A stretch of 64,000 nucleotides of DNA from an uncultured Alphaproteobacteria bacterium (GCA_903831255.1 CAIKWZ010000047.1:62001-126000); one strand, 5' to 3'. Positions 57,068 to 64,000 are shown, counted from the stretch's first letter. The notes: a model not told the origin generated them from the sequence alone. Program-made: numbers and translations.

Positions 57068-58072
57068 TCAGCGCGAGGATCGGCTGACAGTCCGGAAACC
57101 GATATGAGACGATCCGGTGTCCGGCGGACCGGACTGGCGGGCGGAGGGGCGATAACGGAGACAGAAGTTATCAGCGCAGAGGAAAGATCCGCCTTTGATC
57201 AGCCGCCCCTCGCCTGGTGTCGCTCCAGGAACCTCGCCGCTGGTCCACTCCCAGACATTTCCTGTCATGTCGAACAGACCGTATCCGTTAGCCTCATAAC
57301 AGCCCACCTGCGCTGTTCGCGCCCTGTATCCGTCAGACCCGAGATCAACTGCGGGAAATAGCCCCTGCCAGGTATTCGCCCGCGGGGCATTTGCGGACGG
57401 CGGGGCGTCTCCCCATTCGAACCTTTGGTTATCGAGACCGCCACGCGCGGCAAACTCCCACTCCTCTTCAGTGGGAAGGTCACGTCCACGCCAACGAGCG
57501 TAAGCCAGAGCGTCTTCAAAGGCCACCTGAACGACCGGATGTCGCTCTCGTCCCTCCAGATGGCTGCCAGGGCCCTCCGGATGACGCCAGCTGGCGCCGT
57601 CGACCACACGCCACCACCCCGCCGGATCGCCGGACCCGAGGCCGGCGGCGCCGACAAAGACAAGAGAGGAGGGTTTGAGCAGCTCCGCAGGCACACCAGG
57701 ATAAAGGGCCGGATCAGGGGCTCGCTCCGCGAGGGTCACATACCCTGTGGCGTCGACAAACTCAGCAAACTGGAGGTTCGTTACCTCAGTCTTGTCAATG
57801 GTGAACGGCTTGACCACAACGCGACGCGGCGGGCCTTCCTCTGGATTTTCCGGCTTCGCGCCAAGAATATAATCCCCCCCCTCAAGCTGTATCTCATCTT
57901 GAACCAGATCCGGGCAACTGCGAGCGACATCTTTGGAGGAGAGATCGCCGGGGGCCACCGGGCCCTCCTTGGGTTCACAACCGCTCATGACGACCAGCGA
58001 CAGGCCCGCCAGCATCCGTGAAAACAAACGGACGTCGGAAATAGAACCGTCAGCCTGAGTCATCTTAACCAT
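57068..58072 (-). CDS. Formylglycine-generating enzyme (sulfatase-maturating), lipoprotein
   Basis: FGE-sulfatase family protein of 334 residues. Unlike many relatives in bacteria it keeps both copper-binding catalytic cysteines, CADNFC (Cys299 and Cys304, spacing five as in human SUMF1), within GGSFLCADNFCLRYRPSAR. Other family blocks are FTIDKTEVTNLQFAEFVDAT, HPVVQVAFEDALAYARWRG, LPTEEEWEFAARGG and GLFDMTGNVWEW. The N-terminus carries a hydrophobic stretch ending in a lipobox (LVVMSGC), so it should act in the periplasm, converting a sulfatase Cys to formylglycine with oxygen. The start at 58072 is one of several (58063, 58015). No sulfatase gene lies in the window. Confidence 0.87.
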   Translation of the reverse strand: MVKMTQADGSISDVRLFSRMLAGLSLVVMSGCEPKEGPVAPGDLSSKDVARSCPDLVQDEIQLEGGDYILGAKPENPEEGPPRRVVVKPFTIDKTEVTNLQFAEFVDATGYVTLAERAPDPALYPGVPAELLKPSSLVFVGAAGLGSGDPAGWWRVVDGASWRHPEGPGSHLEGRERHPVVQVAFEDALAYARWRGRDLPTEEEWEFAARGGLDNQRFEWGDAPPSANAPRANTWQGLFPAVDLGSDGYRARTAQVGCYEANGYGLFDMTGNVWEWTSGEVPGATPGEGRLIKGGSFLCADNFCLRYRPSARQSGPPDTGSSHIGFRTVSRSSR

Positions 58073-58402: not shown

Positions 58403-58846
58403 ATGGCACGTCCCTTCGCCCTTCGTTCGATGATCGCCGGCTTCATCGCCCTCTTCGGGGCTCTGAACCTGGCTTCACCGGCCTTCGCCTGGGAGAGCCT
58501 TTCCTCACGTATGGACCAGGCCCCGTCGTGGAGCAGCCAGCCCTACGGATCAACCCCGGGCGACTATCAGACCCCCTACTCCGCGCCGCAGCGCGACCAG
58601 TACAATAACCGTCTTGTGGTGAATGGCCGTGTCGTCGACCTTGGCGACTCCAACCATCCTTCACCCTCAAGCCGCGCAGCGTTCAGCTCCGGCGTGTCCG
58701 CAGGCTCCGGCATGCTCCGCGGCCCTTCGCTGACCGCCATGAGCGTCGGCAACAGCATCGAACTCACCGCTGTATCAAACTCAACCATCTTCATCACTCA
58801 GCACAATAACGGCCGCCAGGACGCAAGGATCGGCGCCGCTCAGTGA
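58403..58846 (+). CDS. hfaA: Holdfast-anchoring protein HfaA-like, curlin-type repeat
   Basis: A 147-residue exported protein with signal peptide (cleavage near AFA-WES), a Ser/Gln/Tyr-rich middle that is probably disordered, and a C-terminal motif AMSVGNSIELTAVSNSTIF followed by TQHNNG. That GNS...TQxN unit, with 15 residues between the Ser of GNS118 and Gln133, is curlin-like and recurs six times in the secreted protein at 61288-62286. In Caulobacter, HfaA is an outer-surface, polymer-forming subunit that fixes the adhesive holdfast to the stalk pole. The next gene encodes the CsgG-like HfaB, the partner that exports it. The start is ATG 58403; TTG 58364 is possible. The assignment rests on size, motif and neighbour. 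Confidence 0.75.
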   Translation: MARPFALRSMIAGFIALFGALNLASPAFAWESLSSRMDQAPSWSSQPYGSTPGDYQTPYSAPQRDQYNNRLVVNGRVVDLGDSNHPSPSSRAAFSSGVSAGSGMLRGPSLTAMSVGNSIELTAVSNSTIFITQHNNGRQDARIGAAQ

Positions 58847-58905
58847 AACCACCGCTTAAGTTCGACTTGATAAGATCGCAGCAAGTGACTTCAGGAAGTC
58901 CTCCC

Positions 58906-59901
58906 ATGTCGACCCTTAAAGTCTCAGCCGTCGTCATGGCCCTTCTCATGGGAGGGTGCGCGACCACGCCAGCCAGTCTCGAACCGGTAGCGCCAATCAA
59001 GGGCAGCCCGAGCGAAGAAGTCGATACGGATTACTCACCCGCCCTAGAATGCCTCGCCAGCTATGCTCGCTCGCAGGCCTACCCGGCTCCGCGTGTCGCG
59101 ATCGGTCACATCATGGATCTGACCGGAGCGCAGGACTCCTTCCTTGGGAAAAGACTGACCCAGGGTGCGACACTCATGGCGATCACCGCTGTCTCAAAAG
59201 CGGGCATGCGGGTCGTCGAGCGTTTCGACATGGGCGTGGTGCAGGTTGAGCTGGACTACGCCAACAAAGGCCTGGTCCGCGACGCGCCGACCCGCCTCAG
59301 AGACAATGTACAGGGCCAGATCGAGGGAACCGACCTTTACCTTGTCGGCGGCATCACAGAATTTAACCCGAACATCCGCTCTTCAGGCGGCAATCTCTAC
59401 ATTGGCGGCAATGGATCGGCAGACGCCGCCGCCGCTCTCAGCAAGAGCAGCTATGTATTTGACGTCGGTCTGGATCTCAGACTTATCGATGTTAAGTCGA
59501 CCGAAGTGATCGCAGTGAAATCCCTGCGCAAGCAGCTCCGCGGGTATGAATACGAAGCGGGCGTCTTTGGCTTCATGAGCAACTCGCTGATCGACGCCGG
59601 CGGCGGCGCTCGCGGTATCGAACCGACCCAATCGGCCGTTCGCAACATGATCGAGCGCGCGGTCTTTGAATTCATGAGCAATCTTTACAACCTGTCGGAA
59701 GGCTCCTGCCTGACGAAGGCTCCAACCGAACGAGCAGCCGCGATCGTTGAAGAACCCTCCTCGTCATCGGCCCCCGCAGATGGCGCCGTTCAGCCTCCAG
59801 CGGCCCAGTCCTCCGGACCGCTCGCGCCTCCGATTGGAGATCAGGGTGGACCGACTGTCGCCAAAGCCCCAGTGGCCATTCGCGGCCGTTCCCTGAGCTG
59901 A
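58906..59901 (+). CDS. hfaB: HfaB, CsgG-family outer-membrane export lipoprotein
   Basis: A 331-residue lipoprotein (MSTLKVSAVVMALLMGGC) of the CsgG/HfaB family, predicted to form the outer-membrane pore that secretes HfaA and HfaD and anchors the holdfast. CsgG landmarks include RVAIGHIMDLTGAQDSF, GATLMAITAVSKAGMRVVER, DLYLVGGITEFNPNI, YVFDVGLDLRLIDVKSTEVI and the trans-barrel region. The last 60 residues are Pro/Ala/Ser-rich and disordered. ATG 58906 has an AGGAAG site and gives a compact lipoprotein signal; GTG 58843, overlapping the hfaA stop as GTGA, is less likely. Co-transcribed with hfaA. Confidence 0.87.
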   Translation: MSTLKVSAVVMALLMGGCATTPASLEPVAPIKGSPSEEVDTDYSPALECLASYARSQAYPAPRVAIGHIMDLTGAQDSFLGKRLTQGATLMAITAVSKAGMRVVERFDMGVVQVELDYANKGLVRDAPTRLRDNVQGQIEGTDLYLVGGITEFNPNIRSSGGNLYIGGNGSADAAAALSKSSYVFDVGLDLRLIDVKSTEVIAVKSLRKQLRGYEYEAGVFGFMSNSLIDAGGGARGIEPTQSAVRNMIERAVFEFMSNLYNLSEGSCLTKAPTERAAAIVEEPSSSSAPADGAVQPPAAQSSGPLAPPIGDQGGPTVAKAPVAIRGRSLS

Positions 59902-61210
59902 CAGAGCCAAACTCCGCATCATACTGCGGGAGGCGACATCAGAGAACACGTCAGCTCGATCGAGTGGAAGCATTAAAGAAGTTCGCCTGGAAGCCCCGAT
60001 GACGGAACGCCTCTCAAGGGTCTCTCCAGATCAGTATCCAGATTGAAATGTTGCAGCTGACGGAGGGGGCCCGCCGCTCAACACTCCGAAATCCAATTCA
60101 AGACGATAAGTCTCATCCATCGCCATGGATAGGAAACGTCTGCCAAAGTACATGGCGCTTCGAATAGTCGGAATAGAGCCCGCCATACCGGGGCAAAAGA
60201 GTCTTTTCCAGCAGAGGCTCCCTAGTCTCAAGGTACCTGCCGCTCCGCGACGATAAACTCCGGGAACAACTAAAGACCACGGCCCCGGCAATGAAAACGG
60301 AACAATCCGAGAGCATCGGATGAGGACATTCGCAGCCACGTTGCGGGCGAGCGTCGTGAGACCAGGTCTCAAGCCGGCGCCGCGACGTCCTGCATCTGCA
60401 GTTTACAACCAACTATCTCTGGGTCCGGTATGCAGTCCCTCTCACAATGAATGCGCCAGTCTCAGTGATCCGGAACCAACGATCTGATCCCGACCATTCC
60501 AGGTCACTGACCTACGCGCCGCACAGGCTGAACCCAGGCCAAAGTTCAGGGTAAGTCCAAGATGCCACAACCCCGATCCAGGTATCGCCCGGCAATTGCA
60601 TGAGATCTGGACGAACCGATTTTACTTGTTCCAAGCGCGCCAGAGTTACGTTGACGAGAAAGCCGTCGAAGAGAAAGGCGTCAATCCCCTGACGCACTCA
60701 GAAACGAGAGACGCTGAGAAAATCCCACGAGCAACGACGACCCGCAGCATCTCCGGATCGGCATCAGAACTGGACGAAATCCCGATCAAACCGAGCCTTC
60801 ATCAACACAATTCTGACTACCTCGGGAAGTCCCAAAACTGTGCGCGTTTGGTACGCGTCGGACATTCGACGATCCCCGCTTCCGAGCGCATGAAAACGAC
60901 GGGGAATTGCTCCACAACAGGCGCGACAGATCCCAGACGGTGAAACATTACCCATTGCGACAGGCCCCTCCTTACGATCGGACGTCATGTCGCATGAGAT
61001 CAGAGGCAGGATGGACTCAGAGGGCGCGCCACCTGTCTAGTCGGGAGATCGACGCCAGGCGGCCTCAAAGATGGAACCTCTCCAATCACCCTAATGACGT
61101 GTCTTCAAAAGGCCGCGCATAGGGGAGACCAGAACAAGAGGCATCGACGAACCAAGGGTCGTCGCGAGGCTAGACGAATTGGCTTTCCAAAATTGCAGGT
61201 CAGAAAAGGA
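59902..61210. other. Gene-poor region, possible decayed coding sequence
   Basis: No open frame here has a credible start, ribosome site and protein-like composition; the longest are about 115 codons and overlap on opposite strands. On the minus strand, short protein-like stretches occur in changing frames: MRQGIDAFLFDGFLVNVTLA and VRPDLMQLPGDTWIGVVAS (60512-60697), YLETREPLLEKTLLPRYGGL then YSDYSKRHVLW (60113-60240), and LGLPEVVRIVLMKARFDRDF (60764-60840). They could be remnants of one gene broken by frameshifts, but I cannot name a family. In the related genera hfaD follows hfaB; nothing resembling it is found in this gap. Confidence 0.35.
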
Positions 61211-61243
61211 AACGGCCCCGGATCTGAAAAATCCGGGGCCGTT
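61201..61243 (-). terminator. Rho-independent terminator of the GNS-repeat gene
   Basis: On the minus strand a 13-bp perfect stem (61211-61223 with 61231-61243) with a seven-base loop is followed by TCCTTTTCTG. It lies 44 bases beyond the stop at 61288. Confidence 0.85.
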
Positions 61244-61287
61244 CCTGATCGAAGTTTGGAGCAGAGATAATCCGCCCCTCTCTAAAA

Positions 61288-62286
61288 TCAGAGCTTCGGC
61301 AGGTTGTTGATCGAGACAGAGTTTCCGATCGCAGCAGCCGTCGCCGAGACCGAACCGGTCACGTCGCCGAGGTGAATGTTGGCGGTCGCCTCGGTGTAGG
61401 CGCCGTTCATTTGCGTCGTGTTGACGTTGAGCGAAGCCGTGGCGGGCAGCGTCGAAACGCTGAGTGAGTTGGCGATCGCAGCCGTCGTGGAGTTCACGTC
61501 GCCGGTCACTTTACCCATCTGCAGGTTGGTCAGAGCGGTCGGGTCATAAGACATGAACTGCGTGTTGTTGATGTTGACCGTCTTGGAGTCGGTGGTCTCG
61601 AAAGAAGCCGAGTTACCGATCGCCGCCGAGGTCAGCGTCACGTCGCCGACGACATCGTTGACCTTCGCATTGAGCACCGAGCGAACGTCGCCGTTGAAGC
61701 GCTGGAAGTTGTTGGCGTTGAGGTCGCCCTTGACGTTGACCGACAGGGAGTTCGCGATTGCCGCCGAGGTAGCGGAAATGGCGGTGACGGAGTCAGATCC
61801 GGGAGCCTTCACGCCCGAGATGTTGGACGCATCAACGTTGAGGTCGGACTTGATGACCTGGGTCGTAGCGCCAGTCAGCTGGGTGGAGTTGACGAGCGAA
61901 TTGCCGCTCGTGCTTCCGCCGGCGAGGGCGTCGATTTCCACCGAAGCGGAGTTACCGATGGCGGCGGCGGTCATGGTGAGCGAGCCGACCGTGTCGCTGG
62001 CCTTGACGTTGAGGTTGGCGAGAGCGTTTGACACGTTGGTCTGCGAGGAATTGACCGTGGAGTTGCCGCCGAGCGAAGCGGAGAAGGAGTTGCCGATGGA
62101 GGCCGACGTCATCGCCACGTCTTCAGTGACTTTCGACACCTGGGCGTTGATCGTCGCACGGGTCTCAGCCCAGTTCTGCTGATTGTTGTTGACCGTGTTC
62201 ACTTTGGCCTGGGCGAACGCCGCAGGAGCGCAGGAAAGCAGGAGAACGGTGGCGAGGCCGACAAATTTAGGAGTAGAGGAGCGCAT
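61288..62286 (-). CDS. hfaD: Secreted six-repeat curlin-like protein, probable holdfast anchor HfaD
   Basis: A 332-residue exported protein with signal peptide (AFA-QA). It contains six copies of the A-x-I-G/A-N-S motif at residues 63-67, 109-113, 176-180, 222-226, 270-274 and 319-323. Spacing is 46-49 residues with one of 67, and the first five copies are followed 15-23 residues later by a Gln in N/S-x-x-Q-type strands (NSTQ, NNTQ, NTTQ). Between repeats sits a V-x-G-D/S-V strand. This regular Asn/Gln/Ser/Thr ladder is the hallmark of beta-helical, amyloid-like curlin relatives. HfaA carries one copy of the same unit, and HfaB is the matching export pore. I call it HfaD on these grounds. ATG 62286 has a GGACAGG site. 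It is convergent with hfaAB rather than downstream of it. Confidence 0.6.
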   Translation of the reverse strand: MRSSTPKFVGLATVLLLSCAPAAFAQAKVNTVNNNQQNWAETRATINAQVSKVTEDVAMTSASIGNSFSASLGGNSTVNSSQTNVSNALANLNVKASDTVGSLTMTAAAIGNSASVEIDALAGGSTSGNSLVNSTQLTGATTQVIKSDLNVDASNISGVKAPGSDSVTAISATSAAIANSLSVNVKGDLNANNFQRFNGDVRSVLNAKVNDVVGDVTLTSAAIGNSASFETTDSKTVNINNTQFMSYDPTALTNLQMGKVTGDVNSTTAAIANSLSVSTLPATASLNVNTTQMNGAYTEATANIHLGDVTGSVSATAAAIGNSVSINNLPKL

Positions 62287-62714: not shown

Positions 62715-63098
62715 TCAGGCGGTCTTTCGGGCTTTGGCTGCCATATGGGTCCCCATCGTCTTGAACAACGCCTTCATGGCGACGGGCTTCATCAGAAGAT
62801 CATCGGCCCCTTTTGAGAGACACTCCGCGCGAAGATCGAGAGACGTATCAGCCGTAACCACAATGATGGGAAGCCTGGACTTATCATCATCCCGCTGCCG
62901 GATCTTTCCGATGGCGGTCAATCCATCCATACCGGGCATTCTGAGGTCCATGAGGACGAGCGAGTACTCACCGGCGCCGACCATGGAGACCCCAGTCTCC
63001 CCGTCAGCAGCCTCGTCCAGCTCGACCCCGGCGACCTGCAACATGTCGCGAACGACACGGCGGTTCATGGCGTCATCGTCGACGAAGAGCACCTTCAT
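62715..63098 (-). CDS. Single-domain response regulator (receiver only)
   Basis: A 127-residue stand-alone receiver domain, CheY-like, without an output domain. It has the acidic pair VDDD, the phospho-acceptor Asp in LVLMDLRMPGMDG, the Thr in IIVVTADTS and the Lys in LMKPVAM, so phosphotransfer should be intact. A basic helical tail of about 15 residues ends the protein. ATG 63098 has AGGA at good spacing; GTG 63113 is the frame limit. It follows the hybrid kinase gene by 39 bases on the same strand and is the likely phosphate receiver of that kinase. Confidence 0.9.
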   Translation of the reverse strand: MKVLFVDDDAMNRRVVRDMLQVAGVELDEAADGETGVSMVGAGEYSLVLMDLRMPGMDGLTAIGKIRQRDDDKSRLPIIVVTADTSLDLRAECLSKGADDLLMKPVAMKALFKTMGTHMAAKARKTA

Positions 63099-63137
63099 GT
63101 TCACGTCCTGCACACCATTCGATAGGCCTAGGTCGGA

Positions 63138-64000
63138 TCAAAAACCCATCGTCCCGTTAGCTCTATCGCCAAATCCTTGATATTCCGTAGAGACAGGAGG
63201 TTCATTTAAGACGCACGCAAGAGCGCTTTCGGGGTCGAAGTCACCCTCAAGTACATCGTCTGCGCCGCAAAGCCTCACCATCGGAGCGGTTAATAAGCGC
63301 GCCTCGTCTAACCACACGATCAGCCTCGCCTCCCCTGAGAGCTCCCGCAACTCCATGAGCCGCTCCATGGCCTCCCCTGGATCAGCCCCTAATACGGACG
63401 CGACAACCAACAAACCCGCAGCGGGCCGGATGGCCATTGCGCTCACAGCATCCGCCATTGAATCGACAAGATCAAAATCAACATCCCTCATGGCAAGAGG
63501 GATCTGTAATGACGCAGAGACCACTGCATCATCACTGACAATCAACAATCGGCTTAAATTGAGGTCAGAAGACGTATCACCAGCAGCGCCGGCGAGGTTC
63601 CGTCCCGCCTCCTCTGCAAGCCTAAGCGGAAGACGCAGAACAAACGTCGACCCCGCACCAAGTCGGCTCGAGACACTGACTGTTCCTCCAAGAGCAACCG
63701 CGAGGTTCTGGCAAATTGAAAGTCCCAGCCCGGTTCCGCCGTGCCGTCGCGTTTTGCCTCCATCAACCTGATGGAACGGCGCAAATATGCGATCCAGCTC
63801 ATCTTCAGGGATCCCGCAACCTGTGTCGGAGACCTCTATGATCAGAGCTCCCTCTCTATCGCGATCAACATCAGCCCGCAGACTGACGAGACCCTCATCC
63901 GTGAACTTAACCGCATTGGACAAGAGGTTATAAACGATCTGCCGAAGGCGCTTTTCATCGCCCATGATAAAGGACGGCGAGGACCCAAGTTCAGCAGAAA
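63138..64000 (-). CDS. Hybrid sensor histidine kinase, 3' part, with degenerate receiver domain (partial)
   Basis: C-terminal part of a sensor kinase; the frame stays open to the window edge, so the sensor and dimerisation (phospho-His) regions are outside. The ATP-binding domain is complete: N-box NLLSNAVKFT, G1 DTGCGI, F-box FAPFHQ and G2 GGTGLGLSI. A second domain of about 125 residues after a short linker looks like a receiver (LLIVSDDAVV) but lacks the phospho-acceptor Asp (strand 3 reads LLVVASVLGADP) and the conserved Lys. It is therefore a pseudo-receiver. It is transcribed with the single-domain response regulator downstream. Confidence 0.87.
   Translation of the reverse strand, partial: SAELGSSPSFIMGDEKRLRQIVYNLLSNAVKFTDEGLVSLRADVDRDREGALIIEVSDTGCGIPEDELDRIFAPFHQVDGGKTRRHGGTGLGLSICQNLAVALGGTVSVSSRLGAGSTFVLRLPLRLAEEAGRNLAGAAGDTSSDLNLSRLLIVSDDAVVSASLQIPLAMRDVDFDLVDSMADAVSAMAIRPAAGLLVVASVLGADPGEAMERLMELRELSGEARLIVWLDEARLLTAPMVRLCGADDVLEGDFDPESALACVLNEPPVSTEYQGFGDRANGTMGF

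Follow-up and report, generated by a model that had tools for sequence, protein, structure and literature searches.

The 64,000-nucleotide stretch of an uncultured alphaproteobacterial genome that was analyzed here (CAIKWZ010000047.1:62001-126000; hereafter the window) carries a locus of three genes related to hfaA, hfaB, and hfaD, the products of which anchor the holdfast in Caulobacter. We suggest, with a probability of approximately two in three, that this locus encodes a surface structure of HfaA and HfaD exported through HfaB, which is curli-like in its logic, but not curli by family, and which was kept after the standard holdfast pathway had been lost. The identity of the three genes in the window genome (G000) is established by profile comparisons, and we infer export and co-assembly from Caulobacter.

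An earlier note on this DNA reported three open reading frames at 58403-62286, all of which were found (Table 1), and regarded the repeat protein on the opposite strand as a separate curlin-like polymer at a locus from which hfaD was missing. This view had to be abandoned because the repeat protein is itself HfaD. Since its family aligned to six canonical HfaD proteins over 306 columns (hhalign, 98.4%, E 5.2e-15, the E-values of hhalign in the present study referring to single pairwise comparisons, not database searches), the protein, hereafter HfaD1, is on profile evidence a divergent member of the already known HfaD family, and this match also rules out an origin in an unrelated family. The CsgG-like nature of HfaB was borne out by the Pfam CsgG model (72 bits, E 4.8e-20; cut-off 20.8) and by matches to chains of solved CsgG structures at E 6e-8. 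Against the NCBIfam models, HfaB scored 269.7 bits (NF037935, E 2e-80; cut-off 300), HfaA 32 bits (NF037934, E 1.3e-7; curated cut-off 50), and HfaD1 35.5 bits (NF037936, E 6.8e-9; cut-off 100), and none of them reached its cut-off. HfaA was alignable with 19 HfaA proteins, including that of Caulobacter. A plasmid search using the repeat protein gave no match.

The six units proposed for HfaD1 were recovered, with GNS/ANS spacings of 46, 67, 46, 48, and 49 residues; therefore, the proposed period of 46-49 residues holds for four intervals, but not for the one of 67. A hidden Markov model (HMM) of the HfaD unit, trained on 72 units of other species with the window and sister genomes left out, detected these six units together with a weak half unit at the N-terminus, at a score of 228.7 bits, whereas none of 200 shuffled copies exceeded 5.6. 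As had been noted, a single unit stands close to the C-terminus of HfaA, and this is common to HfaA proteins generally, that of Caulobacter included. The claim that HfaA and the repeat protein share this unit is upheld at the family level, at which the profiles of the HfaA unit and the HfaD unit matched (hhalign, 91.5%, E 8.6e-7), but not for the window HfaA alone, which scored only 2 bits with the HfaD-unit HMM. The HfaA-unit HMM gave 17.5 bits on HfaD1 (best shuffle, 8.1), and full-length HfaD aligned with HfaA across the shared unit (63.9%, E 6.6e-5). As judged from these comparisons, the kinship of the two units is real, but weak and limited to the family level.

The expectation of stacked beta arcs was supported for HfaD1 as a predicted fold: the AlphaFold2 model, built on an alignment of 16 sequences, is all-beta with strands over residues 30-327, a predicted local distance difference test score (pLDDT) of 87.4, and a predicted template modeling score (pTM) of 0.83. 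A structural comparison (VIA-align) of this model returned beta-solenoids, such as the SufD beta-helix (Z 10.8) and the autotransporter UpaB (Z 8.7); the matches listed are generic beta-solenoids, and CsgA and CsgB are not among them, which is no evidence of absence. With Foldseek, no PDB entry matched the model at E<=0.001, and a PDB sequence-profile search with HfaD found no solved relative. The monomer model of HfaA reached a pLDDT of only 51.

In comparisons with the sister genome (G014), the ratio of non-synonymous to synonymous substitutions (dN/dS) was 0.05 for hfaA, 0.04 for hfaB, and 0.04-0.06 over all four genes, including hfaD1 and its paralogue hfaD2, with dS of 0.18-0.71, and their reading frames are unbroken in both species. 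By these measures, the four genes are under strong purifying selection. The low dS of hfaD1 (0.18) was considered as a sign of high expression and dropped, because two nearby unrelated genes were lower (0.06 and 0.14) and local recombination is possible.

A holdfast had been taken for granted in the earlier note, and this assumption does not fit the hfs genes of the window genome, which, like the sister genome, lacks HfsD, HfsC, HfsG, and HfsH. In relatives that have canonical hfaB, the order is hfsD-A-B-C, and hfsE, hfsG, and hfsH are close by. Among HfaB-bearing genomes, the scores of an HfsA profile were bimodal, at approximately 200-760 bits (frames of approximately 500 amino acids (aa) or more) or at 85 bits or lower, the low mode consisting mostly of kinases of approximately 750 aa. 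This profile gave 157+111 bits in the window genome and 162+112 bits in the sister genome, which correspond to an hfsA-hfsB pair at the ancestral hfs site, flanked by genes for a D-Cys desulfhydrase, an Asp racemase, a SEL1 protein, and an oxygenase; thus, a total loss of hfs genes was ruled out. At this site in both genomes, hfsD is missing from one side of the pair, and hfsC with the remaining genes from the other, such that the hfsDAB export genes of a holdfast anchor are represented by hfsA and hfsB, with hfsD absent. Each genome has a single Wza, which is 25% like HfsD and is encoded together with a porin, a 757-aa Wzz kinase (Wzc), and a sugar transferase; in the window genome, this locus lies on the same contig as hfsAB, 24 kb off. 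A joint query with HfsC, HfsG, HfsH, and part of HfsE recovered only a sugar transferase (101 bits) and a Wzy-like protein (57 bits) in the window genome, with HfsG under 19 bits and no HfsH; the Wzy-like protein, which is unlinked, was the best HfsC match. The standard holdfast pathway in this genome thus seems to be eroded, albeit not wholly absent.

The 79 HfaB-bearing genomes sampled, namely, those scoring best with the divergent profile, comprised 34 with HfsA and 45 without; many are draft metagenome genomes, and these proportions are rough. HfaA adjoins HfaB in all 34 genomes with HfsA and in 30 of the 45 without, and the respective figures for an HfaD-like gene are 33 of 34 and 27 of 45. 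Isolates without HfsA include Rhizomicrobium electricum, Tepidicaulis marinus, and Parvibaculum sedimenti. We found no report of HfaABD in genomes lacking hfs genes in the literature searched, which mostly excluded subscription papers, and novelty is unproven.

In Caulobacter crescentus, HfaA forms multimers that resist sodium dodecyl sulfate and heat and that need HfaD, and how HfaA, HfaB, and HfaD tie the holdfast polysaccharide to the cell is described as unresolved (PMC6707917). The window set resembles this system in its three homologous proteins, with a CsgG-like HfaB, secreted HfaA and HfaD, and one unit in HfaA related by profile to the repeats of HfaD. It differs in scoring below the NCBIfam cut-offs, in an HfaB from a separate divergent clade, in an hfaD that is displaced, inverted, and duplicated, and in that hfsD, hfsC, hfsG, and hfsH were not found. 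By analogy, HfaB would be an outer-membrane pore through which HfaA and HfaD are exported, both staying on the cell surface; the two HfaD paralogues would be beta-solenoids of six stacked units, mostly 46-49 residues in length, and the single unit of HfaA could add onto the solenoid end. Since most of the holdfast-making genes seem to be lost, the anchor proteins may do a different surface job in the window species, in which the system would most likely either hold another exopolysaccharide, the Wza/Wzc/porin/sugar-transferase locus being the candidate source, or act as a protein adhesin in its own right.

Several observations weigh against this reading. Aquidulcibacter, Phycosocius, and most Maricaulis-type genomes combine divergent HfaABD with HfsA, and with a full hfs locus where it was read, and in these HfsA-bearing relatives of the clade the divergent HfaABD is probably an ordinary holdfast anchor. 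The window genome, a draft of 76 contigs, retains hfsA and hfsB with dN/dS of 0.20 and 0.08, respectively, and some holdfast-like export could survive on this pair with replaced parts. The scores of HfaA, HfaB, and HfaD are all under the curated cut-offs. If the locus were an ordinary anchor in the window species as well, hfsA-hfsB together with the nearby Wza and other glycosyltransferases would replace hfsD, hfsC, hfsE, hfsG, and hfsH, and HfaABD would anchor as in Caulobacter. The purifying selection on the hfsA-hfsB pair, the Wza, porin, Wzz-kinase, and sugar transferase genes on its contig, and the association of HfaABD with HfsA in clade relatives are consistent with this explanation; however, Wza is only distantly like HfsD and its locus has a Wzc of its own, and the genome lacks HfsH and HfsG as well as any close HfsC. 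We consider this explanation unlikely, while taking it as a serious candidate.

A curli-like reading of HfaAB is already in the literature (PMC6707917), and an extension of the model in the earlier note would have HfaD form long amyloid fibers, nucleated or capped by HfaA, without a polysaccharide partner. Curli CsgA, CsgB, and CsgG likewise comprise a CsgG-family pore and beta-solenoid-type repeat proteins that are secreted and rich in Asn, Gln, and Ser, and the solenoid repeats, the unit in common with HfaA, and the presence of two hfaD genes accord with this model. Codon bias is strong in hfaA and both hfaD genes (effective number of codons, 34.7-40.7 versus a window median of 49.1, with hfaD2 at 34.7 being the lowest of the genes compared) and suggests high expression, but repeat composition may also produce such bias. 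The window unit is approximately twice as long as that of curli, the minimal repeat of which was defined previously (PMC3521004), and the proposed curlin-like nature of the repeat protein failed both by family, as the whole genome contained no match to Curlin_rpt (PF07012) at E<=10, and by motif, as QxGxxN (X6QxGxxNx10) occurs in neither HfaD nor HfaA of the window; curlin membership was ruled out by these tests. As for the putative roles of HfaA as a nucleator and of the repeat protein as a polymer, the study that reported HfaA as the multimer-former states the reverse (PMC6707917). A true amyloid of this type is, in our view, improbable. That the genes are a decaying remnant on the way to loss is hardly credible: the loss of most hfs genes and the separation of hfaD from hfaAB speak for it, but all reading frames are intact in both species, the low dN/dS of the hfa genes is sustained over the whole range of dS, and the duplicated hfaD is kept in both.

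The proposed retention of an HfaB-exported HfaA/HfaD structure raises a wider and more tentative view, to which we assign somewhat less than even odds, that HfaA-HfaB-HfaD is in essence no holdfast anchor, but a widespread alphaproteobacterial export and assembly system for beta-solenoid surface proteins, of which holdfast anchoring in Caulobacter would be one use and which continues in the window species after the loss of the standard holdfast pathway. Genomes with selected anchor proteins and without the standard holdfast genes represent natural separations of function, allow tests of whether the anchor alone works as a protein adhesin or fiber, and offer simpler HfaD solenoids for structural analyses. 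Moreover, the dependence of HfaA multimers on HfaD may have a physical basis in the unit that the two proteins share.

A tree built from 110 HfaB sequences places the window in a divergent clade of 19 rows (support 100/99), separate from 90 rows among which are Caulobacter and most genomes of the window's own genus; G005, of the same genus, has both kinds of HfaB. Aquidulcibacter, Ca. Phycosocius, Maricaulis-type metagenome-assembled genomes (MAGs), and Aquisalinus share this clade and have HfaD proteins approximately 38-50% identical with the same unit, that of Aquisalinus having nine units, as expected for a modular solenoid; the first three keep HfsA, whereas Aquisalinus is without it. They differ from the window in gene order, which is hfaA-hfaB-hfaD in the Aquidulcibacter and Phycosocius types, hfaB-hfaD-hfaA in Aquisalinus, and with hfaD divergent and upstream of hfaA in the Maricaulis types. 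The departure from the contiguous hfaABD order pointed out previously is therefore one of four orders in the clade: hfaD1 is inverted 1.4 kb downstream of hfaA-hfaB, a position that we count as adjacent, and its displacement reflects the fluidity of gene order among these HfaB relatives. The convergent arrangement was confirmed in relatives, being common to the sister genome and also present in G005, in which HfaD is interrupted by a contig end. The spacer holds no remnant hfaD, which tblastn ruled out. A Maricaulis MAG (L113, 6092-12192) has two hfaA-hfaB pairs with an inverted hfaD ahead of each, and the window arrangement could come from such a tandem by the loss of the outer genes. A genuine hfaD elsewhere in the genome, which had been named as counting against the earlier model, does exist as hfaD2, but as a paralogue 76-77% identical to hfaD1, on another contig in both the window and sister genomes. 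The start of hfaB is better placed at ATG 58906 than at the in-frame GTG 58843, since AGGAAG precedes the ATG and a lipoprotein signal results.

Table 1. Features of the hfa locus (window positions unless a contig is given)
Feature	Position	Strand	Description
hfaA-like gene	58403..58846	+	147 aa; ATG start 58403; Sec signal peptide; core PYG...RDxxxNR...NG conserved
HfaA single C-terminal unit	58748..58822	+	residues about 116-140; SVGNSIEL..STIFITQHNNG
hfaB-like gene	58906..59901	+	CsgG-family outer-membrane export pore lipoprotein (predicted)
Convergent spacer hfaB-hfaD1	59902..61287		unconserved versus sister genome except adjoining hfaD
Intrinsic-terminator-like hairpin	61209..61245	-	strong, 17 pairs; closes hfaD1
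hfaD1, divergent hfaD	61288..62286	-	332 aa; signal peptide; predicted beta-solenoid
HfaD unit 1	62029..62151	-	residues 46-86; GNS at 65
HfaD unit 2	61864..62013	-	residues 92-141; GNS at 111; long 67-residue spacing follows
HfaD unit 3	61678..61797	-	residues 164-203; ANS at 178
HfaD unit 4	61534..61674	-	residues 205-251; GNS at 224
HfaD unit 5	61387..61530	-	residues 253-300; ANS at 272
HfaD unit 6, C-terminal half unit	61306..61380	-	residues 303-327; GNS at 321
hfaD2	G000:C32:35349-36323 (L056 7338-8330)		solitary; Wzy-like and glycosyltransferase genes about 3 kb away

Other hfa-related loci were observed in the genomes compared. In G005, a transposase-like gene lies between hfaB and the hfaD end (L049, 4577-5692), and two contigs terminate in near-identical hfaD 3' ends, which suggests that this genome also has two copies of hfaD. 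G017 has a second, very long-branched set of HfaA-like, HfaB, and HfaD genes (L053, 6145-8325) beside canonical hfaABD. Several Parvibaculum loci (L152, L163, L183, and others) carry an HfaB homologue with no HfaA/HfaD-like gene detected adjoining it. Aquidulcibacter-type genomes also encode short repeat proteins that are distantly HfaD-like and not linked to hfaB (L058, 460-1230, and frames of approximately 260 aa in G072, G073, and G075); these are possible further HfaB substrates. In the window, a divergent gene for a lipoprotein with an FGE-sulfatase domain (57068-58072) lies upstream of hfaA and is kept in the sister genome, and genes for a receiver-domain protein and a histidine kinase, the TPR part of which is outside the window, precede hfaD1 on its own strand (62715-63965).

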